64,000 nucleotides of DNA, from positions 868,001-932,000 of the forward strand of contig BPKC01000001.1 of NCBI GenBank assembly GCA_026004935.1, in the 5' to 3' direction. This DNA comes from Rhodothalassiaceae bacterium (GTDB lineage: Bacteria > Pseudomonadota > Alphaproteobacteria > Sphingomonadales > Rhodothalassiaceae). This document shows positions 30,121 through 56,647 of this stretch, one piece after another. A program made the translations under genes and the position numbers. A model generated the notes under the pieces. The model ran no database searches, was not told the DNA's origin, and worked only from the letters and a program-made list of their open reading frames with translations. How positions within the stretch are numbered: position 1 is the first letter of the stretch; each line of letters opens with the position of its first letter.

Positions 30121-30196
30121 GGGGCCGTAGCTCAGTTGGGAGAGCGCAGCAATCGCACTGCTGAGGTCAGGGGTTCGATTCCCCTCGGCTCCACCA
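30121..30196 (+). tRNA. tRNA-Ala (anticodon CGC)
   Basis: A 76-nt cloverleaf with encoded CCA. The acceptor GGGGCCG (30121-30127) pairs with CGGCTCC (30186-30192), including one G-U pair; discriminator A, CCA at 30194-30196. The anticodon stem CAGCA/TGCTG encloses ATCGCAC, giving anticodon CGC, which reads GCG, a common codon in this genome. The 263 bases to the next gene hold nothing I could support. Confidence 0.97.
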
Positions 30197-35484: not shown

Positions 35485-35753
35485 CGTCACCCGCCGGCTC
35501 GAGCGGCGGGTCCGTGTCTTTCGTCCTCATCCGCCGCCGCCAACCCCTGATCGTCATCCGCCGACCTGATCGATGGATCAAGCAGAAGATGTGGCCAACC
35601 GCCGGCGCCGGCGATGTCTCCACCGCCCGATGGGTTCGCCGTTCAAGCCGGCGAACGACGCGTTTGAGAAGCTGTTGCTCCTGGGCGCTCACTCACCCTC
35701 GTCAGCGGCCGGCTCCCCTTCCACGTCACCCGCCGGCTCGAGCGGCGGGTCCA
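35485..35753. repeat. Palindromic element cluster 1 (degenerate)
   Basis: The gap 35344-35823 between convergent genes holds two single type-A palindromes (35485-35514 and 35724-35753, CTCGAG-type centre) and one worn doublet at 35552-35660. The doublet pairs a decayed A copy at its left end with a type-B copy (TTCGCCGTTCAAGCCGGCGA) at its right. Overall length is 109, the same as intact elements elsewhere. Orientation matches cluster 2. No gene was seen in the gap. Confidence 0.75.
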
Positions 35754-35823
35754 GCGGCTACGCAGGCGCTTTCGCGCCGGGGGACCGTTGCGGGCGGCGA
35801 TTCCGGCGGCCGCGCCCGCGGGC

Positions 35824-41725: not shown

Positions 41726-41888
41726 CCGGCGCGCCATTCCTTCGCGGCCCCTCCGGGACCGGCGACCATCCGGCACCCGTCCATCGACCCCCGATCGCGC
41801 ATCCCGCACGAGGGGGCGGGCGGCATCTCCGACTTGCCCCTTCCTGTCGCCGGCCGGCTCTCCGGGCTTCGCCACCGGCCGGCTCTCT

Positions 41889-42590
41889 CTTCGTCACCCG
41901 ACGGCACTTCTCTCTTCGTCACCCGACGGCACTTCTCTCTTCGTCACCCGCCGGCGTGACCGGCGGGTCCAGCCGCCGGGGACACCGGCACCGGCGCCCG
42001 TGCCGTCGACATGCCACATGGGTTCGCCGGTCAAGCCGGCGAACGACGATTCAGTCATCAGTCGTCAGTCATCTGTGATCAGGGACCGGCATGGCGGGCG
42101 TCACCCGCCGTTGCCCACGCTCCGCATCGTCACCCGCCGGCGTCATTTTTCCTCACCCGCCTCCTCTCTACATTCGTCACCCGCAGGCTCGACCGGCGGG
42201 TCCACCGCGCAGCGGAGACGGCCGCAAGCGCTGGGTCCGTCCTCCGTGGCGGCTGGATTCGCCGCTTTCGCGGCGAATGACGAAAGAAGAGAACGTCACC
42301 CGCCGGCTTGACCGGCGGGTCCACCGCGCAGCGGAGACGGCCGCAAGCGCTGGGTCCGTCCTCCGTGGCGGCTGGATTCGCCGCTTTCGCGGCGAATGAC
42401 GAAAGAAGAGAACGTCACCCGCAGGCTCGACCGGCGGGTCCAGCGAACGGCGGAGCCGACTACAGGCGTGGGAGCTGTTGTCACCGCCGGCCGGGTTCGC
42501 CGCTTTCGCGGCGAATGACGAGGAGAACGAGAGTCACCCGCCGTTACGCACACTCCAGATCGTCACCCGCCGGCTCGACCGGCGGGTCCA
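41889..42590. repeat. Palindromic element cluster 2, with 119-bp tandem duplication
   Basis: The 975-base gap between convergent msrA and the zinc-protein gene is mostly repeats. A 25-bp unit (CTTCGTCACCCGACGGCACT plus TCTCT) is tandem at 41889-41913 and 41914-41938 and runs into the first palindrome. Composite doublets lie at 41942-42048 (A with B) and at 42175-42282, 42294-42401 and 42413-42520 (A with C). A lone A is at 42561-42590. Units 42175-42293 and 42294-42412 are tandem copies, both 119 bp, nearly identical. All are in the opposite orientation to clusters 3-5. Bases 41726-41888 hold nothing supported. Confidence 0.88.
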
Positions 42591-42700
42591 GCAGGAAGGC
42601 GCAACGATCTCATGCGGGCGGGATGTCTCGGCCTGAGGCCGGGTCCGCCGGTTGAGCAGGCGGATGATGCGACCGGGGATGGCCGGCGCGGGCGGCGCCT

Positions 42701-45683: not shown

Positions 45684-45785
45684 CGCCGGCCGCCGCCGCG
45701 CTCCATTCCTCTTCGGCGGTGTCGCCGCCGGACCCGGCCGCGGTTCGGTGCATCTCCCGGGCGGGTGACCGGTCCCTCGGGCCGC

Positions 45786-46379
45786 TGGACCCGCCGGTCA
45801 AGCCGGCGGGTGACGAGGAAGAAAGAGCGCCCGCGCGTGGCGACGTAAGCACTCATTCCGGATGATGACTGAGAGGGCGCATCGGCGGATGGTGCTCTCC
45901 TCCCGCGTCGTTCGCCGGCTTGACCGGCGAACCCATGAGGCGGTGACCTCGGCGCGGGCGCCGGTGCTGATGCCTCCGGCGGCTGGACCCGCCGGTCAAG
46001 CCGGCGGGTGACGAAGAGAGAGTGGCGGCGGGTGGCGATGGAAGCACTAACTCGGCGGTGATGATCGGGGAATCGCCTTGGCGGGTGGCGAGAAGATAGT
46101 GCCGGCGGGTGACGCTCTCTTCTTTCGTCATTCGCCGCGAAAGCGGCGAATCCAGCCGCCGCGTGCCACAATAGCTGCGCCGGGATCGCCCGCCCTCCCG
46201 CCGGACCCGCCGGTCAAGCCGGCGGGTGATGACGAGAAAATGGCGCCGGCGAGTGACGCCCCCCCCCTTTGCGTCGTTCGCCGGCTTGACCGGCGAACCC
46301 ATGAGGCGGTGACCTCGGCGCGGGCGCCGGTGCTGGTGCCTCCGGCGACTGGACCCGCCGGTCAAGCCGGCGGGTGACG
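45786..46379. repeat. Palindromic element cluster 3
   Basis: The 885-base gap between convergent nadB and hisE carries a lone A (45786-45815) and three composite doublets: B-A 45906-46013, C-A 46126-46229, and B-A 46272-46379. The two B-A doublets are near-identical over their full 108 bases including the linker. A partial A just before 46115 is joined to the C palindrome by the 11-nt connector CTCTCTTCTTT. A run of nine C (46259-46267) precedes the third doublet. Bases 46380-46568 hold nothing supported. Confidence 0.88.
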
Positions 46380-52510: not shown

Positions 52511-53028
52511 CGTCGTTCGCCGGCTTGACCGGCGAACCCATGAGGCGGTGACACCAGCACCAGCGCCGGTCATCGGCCCGGCCGGCGGCTGGACCCGCCG
52601 GTCAAGCCGGCAGGTGACGCAGAGAGAGTGGCGGCGGGTGACGAGAAAGGGGGGGGGCGCTGGGCGATAATTCGGAGCGTAGAGCAGCCGCCGGCGAGTG
52701 GGAGTGCGCGCCGGCGGGTGACGCTCCCTTTCTCTCGTCATTCGCCGCGAAAGCGGCGAATCCAGCCGCCGCTCGGGCCGCTCCCGGCGCATGGGGTCTT
52801 CTCCGATCCCCTCTGGATCCGCCGGCCAAGCCGGCGGATGAGGAATGAAGAGGAAGCCGGCGGGTGGCGGTGGCCGCTCCGATCACTGATTACTGATGAC
52901 GGATGACCGATAACTGACATGTCGTTCGCCGGCTCGACCGGCGAACCCATGAGGCGGTGACGGGGGCACCGGCACCGGGAATGAAAATCGCTTCTTGCCG
53001 GACCCGCAGATCAAGCCCGCGGGTGACG
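52511..53028. repeat. Palindromic element cluster 4
   Basis: The 639-base gap between convergent hslU and the YqjE-like gene holds three composite doublets: B-A 52511-52619, C-A 52736-52842 (the A copy is a GGATCC variant), and B-A 52920-53028 (a worn A copy). A partial A ending at 52723 is linked to the C palindrome by a 12-nt CTCCCTTTCTCT connector. A nine-G run lies at 52649-52657. The 52880-52920 stretch has short near-repeats of the ACTGAT type. No gene was seen. Confidence 0.85.
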
Positions 53029-56016: not shown

Positions 56017-56130
56017 TGCCGCCGGAGCGGGCCGGCCGCCGGCTTTCCCGCTCCCTCCGCCGCAGCGCGCCGCACACCCGACGAGGATGCGGAAACGGCA
56101 CCGGCGCAGGGCATCGGCCCCGCCGGCGGC

Positions 56131-56647
56131 TGGACCCGCCGGTCGAGCCGGCGGGTGACGAAGTAAGGGTAGGATCCACCGGTCGCGCCGGCGGGTGACG
56201 CTCTCTTTTTTCGTCATTCGCCGCGAAAGCGGCGAATCCAGCCGCCGTGCGTGACGGCTTCGGCATCGGGGATGGGCCCTGCCGCCTGCTGGACCCGCCG
56301 GTCGAGCCGGCGGGTGACGAGAAAGAACTGCCAGCTGGTGAAGGGAAGCGACCGTGCCCGGCAGGCTTGTCGGTTTGCGCGGATTAAGAATGTGCGACGG
56401 CGGGTGACGCACTCCCAAGCGCGTCGTTCGCCGGCCTGACCGGCGAATCCATGAGGCGGTGACACCAGCACCGGCGCCGGCCATCCGCCTGCCAGCGGCT
56501 GGACCGCCGGTCGAGCCGGCGGGTGACGCTCTCTTTTTTCGTCATTCGCCGCGAAAGCGGCGAATCCAGCCGCCGTGCGTGACGGCTTCGGCATCGGGGA
56601 TGGGCCCTGCTGCCTGCTGGACCCGCCGGTCGAGCCGGCGGGTGACG
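56131..56647. repeat. Palindromic element cluster 5
   Basis: The 757-base gap between convergent acyP and the HMG-CoA lyase gene is an array: A (56131-56160), a variant A (56172-56200), C-A doublet 56212-56319, B-A doublet 56422-56528, and C-A doublet 56540-56647. Both C palindromes are preceded by the connector CTCTCTTTTTT after TGACG. The two C-A doublets are identical over about 108 bases except for one linker base. A copies here have a self-complementary TCGAG centre. Bases 56648-56773 hold decayed fragments only. Confidence 0.88.

Follow-up and report, generated by a model that had tools for sequence, protein, structure and literature searches.

The window, by which we mean the whole 64,000-nt stretch of DNA that was analysed, holds 15 head-to-head doublets of a short palindromic repeat, arranged in five clusters. 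The initial annotation had described the repeats as three palindromes, A, B and C. All three are present, but they are not separate kinds: placed in a common orientation they become a single REP motif, CGTC-R-YY-CGCCG-(loop)-CGGCG-RR-Y-CCA, with an unpaired CGTC tag at one end (as read from the position profiles of the doublets) and a CCA tail. Stem positions 2-3 are TT in B, whose loop is CTTGA; C has the same head with the loop GAAA, and A has CC (or TC) at these positions and the loop CTTGA. The stems are 9 bp in each, with a 5-nt loop in A and B and a 4-nt loop in C. We call B and C the T-ends and A the C-end. In a unit of about 109 bp, a T-end REP is then joined through some 48 nt of linker to an inverted C-end REP, so that the two motifs of a doublet are similar but differ. 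The window search tolerated 4-6 substitutions and accepted either of the YY pairs at both ends, so it carried no bias toward heterodimers. The doublets span 106-109 nt with partner starts 75-78 nt apart. This agrees with the annotated count of at least twelve doublets in five clusters, and every coordinate named at the time was correct.

A 109-nt doublet with a B head and a degenerate C-end (35552..35660, minus strand) lies between two unpaired A-type REPs on the plus strand (35485..35515 and 35724..35754). Further along the minus strand are a 107-nt B-A doublet (41942..42048), three 108-nt C-A doublets (42175..42282, 42294..42401 and 42413..42520) that form the units, starting with the first named, of a 119-bp tandem array at 42175-42541, and a 109-nt doublet with a decayed head and an A tail (42561..42669). 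The remaining doublets are on the plus strand. An unpaired A-type REP (45785..45815, minus strand) precedes the 45906-46379 cluster, which is made of a 108-nt B-A doublet (45906..46013), a 106-nt C-A doublet (46126..46231) and another 108-nt B-A doublet (46272..46379). These are followed by a 109-nt B-A doublet (52511..52619), a 108-nt doublet with a C head and a TC-type tail (52736..52843) and a 109-nt B-A doublet with a decayed tail (52920..53028). Two more unpaired A-type REPs on the minus strand (56130..56160 and 56170..56200) come before a 108-nt C-A doublet (56212..56319), a 107-nt B-A doublet (56422..56528) and a final 108-nt C-A doublet (56540..56647).

Smaller repeats accompany the doublets. 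Tandem Repeats Finder, together with counts of half-REPs, identified unstranded 25-nt tandem modules at 41884..41955, each a half-REP (CGTCACCCGNCGG plus a pyrimidine tract), and the final module runs into the first REP of the doublet at 41942. In the spacers of L001-L016, too, doublets are separated by modules of about 25 nt, in which CCGGCGGGTGACG is joined to a tract of pyrimidines or purines. The half-REPs (CCGGCGGGTGACG) always share the polarity of their array (108/224 upstream, 96/224 downstream, 0 reversed), and the gaps between doublets step with their number, gaps of 11-12, about 34-40 and 59-63 nt mostly holding 0, 0-1 and 2 half-REPs. Runs of heptamers (TGATNAC / TGATCAG-like) adjoin some B heads, at 42049-42088 and 52880-52919 in the window and at L225:962-1050 and L230:1398-1490 elsewhere, and there is a second B-element whose interior is built of such heptamers and is followed by a truncated A arm. 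We considered whether unpaired ends could enclose a gene as parts of an autonomous element and rejected this: the unpaired B heads are decayed doublets or the heptamer B-element, and none of the inner sequences inspected pointed to a gene-bearing element. Elsewhere in the window, an Rfam tmRNA match at 30121-30196, at the bare gathering score and with 304 model positions missing, proved to be a misassigned tRNA, which ARAGORN calls as tRNA-Ala (cgc).

Over the whole source genome, strict patterns with a linker of 40-55 nt found at least 415 T-end/C-end doublets (187 + 228), as compared to C/C homodimers at 3 places (each read on both strands), no T/T homodimer, and no doublet in the reversed-pattern control. 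When the A-type arm was searched by itself with at most 2 mismatches, the two strands matched 599 and 624 times and the control 32 and 33 times; the majority of A copies enter both strand counts. In 57 stretches taken around REP matches in the same genome we allowed spans of 60-160 nt and obtained 247 doublets, of which 243 fall within 106-110 nt (109 nt in 122, 108 nt in 80, 107 nt in 25 and 110 nt in 14). These stretches were picked for holding REPs and do not sample the genome at random, and thus they measure geometry and not density. Random spacing of the partners is excluded, and the fixed geometry claimed for the window extends to these stretches. Orientation is uniform in 59 of their 60 multi-doublet clusters. 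The linkers had been described as variable in sequence and hardly in length. The length is indeed steady, mostly 48-49 nt in the sampled stretches, but the sequences are not arbitrary; they form 125 families at 88% identity, which are homologous and share many conserved positions. An exact doublet pattern run over 84,980 species, the source genome left out, matched no other genome, and the phage and plasmid collections gave no doublet match.

The covariance-model search that the initial annotation had proposed was carried out with a model built from diverse doublets and run on 301 genomes of the order. The doublet architecture is found in 148 of them and in 44 of the 78 genera, each relative having its own stem, other linkers and a species-specific typical length. 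Compensatory changes across species occur in 11 of 18 stem pairs, with a covariation score of 0.506 as compared to 0.166 when shuffled. Among 82 distinct doublets from 22 relatives the stems of the two ends differ in 79, mainly at positions 2 and 3, and nearly all of them carry the CTTGA loop at both ends. Helical phasing of the spacer was rejected, as the spans range from about 78 to 109 nt across species with no common phase. In the one congeneric genome, a fragmented draft, the sole doublet found lies at a contig end (L028, G001:C291:2-110), which suggests that arrays broke this assembly and that copies are under-counted there.

The doublets have stable predicted folds; on the B/C-to-A strand the z-scores lie between about -2.9 and -7.3. 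The minimum-energy fold of B-A doublets is a single long hairpin of about 24 bp and that of C-A doublets is two separate hairpins; this holds for both strands, and DNA parameters give the same result. Given that the B loop is the reverse complement of the A loop, a transcript could in principle form a kissing loop or a three-part riboregulator, the GAAA loop of C being a GNRA tetraloop. The complementarity is real but trivial: both ends carry CTTGA in like orientation and are arranged inverted, and the same loop is class-wide, standing at both ends in most relatives. The GNRA loop is present on one strand only, and the orientation of clusters is not significantly tied to transcription (among codirectional gene pairs, 8 same and 13 opposite). 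The folds described above do not favour a kissing loop, and no covarying helix within the linker rises above column composition, for which reason we also rejected the linker as a third conserved helix. An RNA-level function of this kind is therefore extremely unlikely.

The genes flanking the 58 clusters are convergent in 35 cases, codirectional in 21 and divergent in 2, whereas the 57 gene pairs of the window are 10 convergent, 38 codirectional and 9 divergent. Convergent pairs are thus enriched (35/58 against 10/57, odds ratio 7.2, p=3e-6), with the reservation that the genes were called by a home-made and approximate codon-usage ORF caller and that the background is one 64-kb window. Such placement, together with the stable hairpins, could mean that the doublets persist because they serve the host between converging genes, either by binding topoisomerase or nucleoid proteins, as E. 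coli BIMEs are reported to bind gyrase and IHF (PMC2817692), or by protecting the 3' ends of transcripts. The enrichment, however, is predicted equally by insertion followed by selection against damage to genes and promoters, and the lack of a significant orientation bias between codirectional genes argues against a host function, as do the linkers with no covarying helix. The hairpins are not followed by a U-tract, and with 1 terminator-like site against 0.8 expected we rejected intrinsic terminators as an explanation. Additionally, the C palindrome, which has 177 exact or one-mismatch copies in the source genome, has none in 60 relatives. We regard maintenance for a host function as possible but rather unlikely.

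In 22 cluster pairs lying more than 2 kb apart and having linkers at least 90% alike, the doublets are 95% identical, while the first 10 flanking nucleotides agree at only 51% upstream and 48% downstream, as compared to 42-43% for random pairs. As distant copies are alike in the doublet and not in the flanks, the doublet itself appears to be the dispersed unit; their homology stops at its borders, as would be expected if the inverted doublet is the replicative unit, like in a REPIN. A single segmental duplication, the other outcome that the initial annotation had set against its claim, is excluded by the 125 linker families and by the distant flanks, which are not shared. Within arrays the situation is different, as neighbours often have linkers that are 90-100% alike and have flanks in common too. 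These shared flanks, the single orientation and the 119-bp tandem array indicate that arrays grew by local duplication. No target-site duplication was found and direct repeats in the flanks are at chance level, so the doublets do not qualify as MITEs (DDE insertion sequence).

Our preferred explanation, which we consider likely, is that the doublets, made of CGTC-tagged REPs, are non-autonomous mobile units that together form a REPIN-like population. It is drawn from what can be read in the DNA: the identity of the unit, its fixed geometry, the obligate T-end/C-end polarity, the uniformly oriented local arrays, the placement downstream of genes, for the most part between convergent ones, and a homology between dispersed copies that ends at the CGTC/GACG borders. 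Whole doublets would be copied to new intergenic sites by a trans-acting enzyme that recognises the folded ends, and this enzyme would either have been lost from the source genome or be of an unrecognised type. Arrays would then expand through local tandem duplication, and inserts would survive where genes and promoters stay intact. Among distant B-headed doublets the mean identity is 93% for heads and 92% for tails, but only 60% for linkers, as might be expected if recognition (or homogenising conversion) acts on the ends while the linker is largely carried along. Any role at chromosome level, for example in relieving supercoils between convergent genes, is hypothetical and would be a secondary one. 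Recombination or gene conversion between existing copies could account for part of the dispersal.

One candidate for the mobilising enzyme is the Y1 REP-associated tyrosine transposase (RAYT); if a RAYT that is or formerly was in the source genome moved the doublets, they would be strict-sense REPINs. The layout, the tandem clusters and the conserved ends match REPINs (PMC3116915), and Y1 genes are found in 54 of the 301 genomes of the order and in one relative from the family (G004). The test for a RAYT that had been suggested came out negative, however: a PF01797 search of the whole source genome gave 0 candidates, and the cognate RAYT of a REPIN is therefore missing; there is also no IS110 transposase in this genome. 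Across the 301 genomes the presence of Y1 shows no association with doublets (31/148 genomes with doublets and 23/153 without, p=0.23), and only 7 of the 42 doublet-richest genomes have Y1. Of 24 Y1 loci in relatives, not one lies within 700 bp of a CCA-tailed CGTC REP, whereas one of them, the Y1 gene at L260 (G042:C197, 1527-2295), has GTAG-type REPs on both sides; it is a classical RAYT locus and serves here as a positive control. The tag in the source genome is also CGTC and not GTAG. A Y1 transposase is thus a very unlikely mobiliser. Di Nocera et al. (2013, PMC3733652) likewise could link no transposase to CGTC REPs, which agrees with the absence of Y1 and the unlinked Y1 loci seen here.

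The second feature to be explained is that the ends are always different. The initial annotation read a specific three-part syntax into the repeats. This syntax is obligate heterodimerism, one REP with two end types, and is a known phenomenon in extreme form, as heterodimers were already reported for CGTC-2/CGTC-3 and for enterobacterial REPs. The ends differ at stem positions 2-3 in 245 of 247 doublets of the source genome, and the tail has C at position 3 in 247/247 and C or T at position 2. All 86 C-headed doublets follow this rule, with heads that are TT in 84/86. An apparent swap of B and C heads (1668987 and 1839218) was rejected, being a misclassified C head with a mutated loop. The authors who named the CGTC REPs saw no obvious explanation for the preference (PMC3733652), and three readings can be weighed: purging of inverted repeats, end labels for a recombinase, and polarity that is inherited while conversion acts within each pool of ends.

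A perfect 30-bp inverted repeat could be cut or deleted by SbcCD-type instability, so that homodimers are purged, a possibility raised in PMC3733652. Both the 245 differing doublets and the relatives are consistent with this, particularly as the differing positions and letters change between genomes. If purging were the cause, however, the rule should be relaxed in C-A doublets, where the loops already differ, yet all 86 keep the difference at stem positions 2-3. Moreover, the constant C at tail position 3, next to a position that varies, resembles an end label, families with homodimers only are reported by Di Nocera et al. (PMC3733652), and conversion inside each end pool could yield the identical pattern. 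Purging is thus a conceivable cause but a somewhat doubtful one. Alternatively, each CGTC doublet may be a miniature element whose left (T) and right (C) ends carry distinct addresses, to be read by an undescribed recombinase other than a RAYT. An enzyme that reads a label at stem positions 2-3 would explain both the absence of homodimers and the absolute polarity. As inherited polarity with conversion may also account for it, the end-label pattern is a lead and not a proof, and we hold the addressed ends to be unlikely.

CGTC REPs occur across the alphaproteobacteria, and both the link to a transposase and the cause of heterodimers are questions for the present population. With hundreds of copies, absolute polarity and exact dispersal borders, in a genome lacking Y1 and IS110, both become testable here: which enzyme moves CGTC REPs, and whether the ends act as labels or need only be different. 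The interest lies in the missing mobiliser and the rule of always different ends, as the family itself belongs to a known class.

The REP doublet (REPIN/BIME) layout had been recognised correctly, and the published family is that of the CGTC-tagged REPs (PMC3733652). Tested against this superfamily, the doublets show nearly all its defining features: the tag (CGTC, or TGTC/CCTC, relatives included), a stem of 8-9 bp with a loop of 4 or 5 nt, the CCA tail, head-to-head dimers and heterodimers, an intergenic position beside 3' ends, a mainly alphaproteobacterial distribution and no dedicated transposase. Stem positions 1-2 give a mixed picture: the A/T pairs said to be 'almost invariably' present there are seen in C heads and in many T-ends of relatives, while B heads have mostly G-T and C-ends A-C; a G is frequent as the first base of the stem, and positions 2-3 are CC in the C-end. 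Large polar clusters are also the rule here, whereas grouped CGTC elements were called rare outside Neisseriae and Wolbachia, and the C-A doublet, a hybrid dimer of a 4-nt-loop and a 5-nt-loop element, and the half-REP modules between doublets are further differences. dRS3 of Neisseria and RPE-4/RPE-6 of Rickettsia (CGTC-1/CGTC-4, PMC3733652) belong to the same superfamily, and C matches the loop length of CGTC-1, but their stems are different and no 109-nt T-end/C-end doublet with the present linker family is described for them.

In organisation the doublets resemble REPINs and BIMEs. Like the E. coli BIMEs of Y and Z palindromic units (PMC2817692), they have two kinds of REP alternating in opposite orientation in modular tandem arrays in intergenic DNA, though the E. 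coli elements are of the GTAG class and have a cognate RAYT (yafM) flanked by both REP types. In common with the REPINs of Pseudomonas fluorescens SBW25 (Bertels and Rainey 2011, PMC3116915), the unit that dispersed is an inverted REP pair of fixed spacing, the ends are conserved while the spacer is freer, and there are tandem clusters; the differences are a CGTC tag instead of the GTAG/GTGG type, no RAYT, and ends that are obligately different. Strict RAYT-linked REPIN membership fails on the RAYT, and the doublets are best described as a REPIN-like heterodimer population of the CGTC class.
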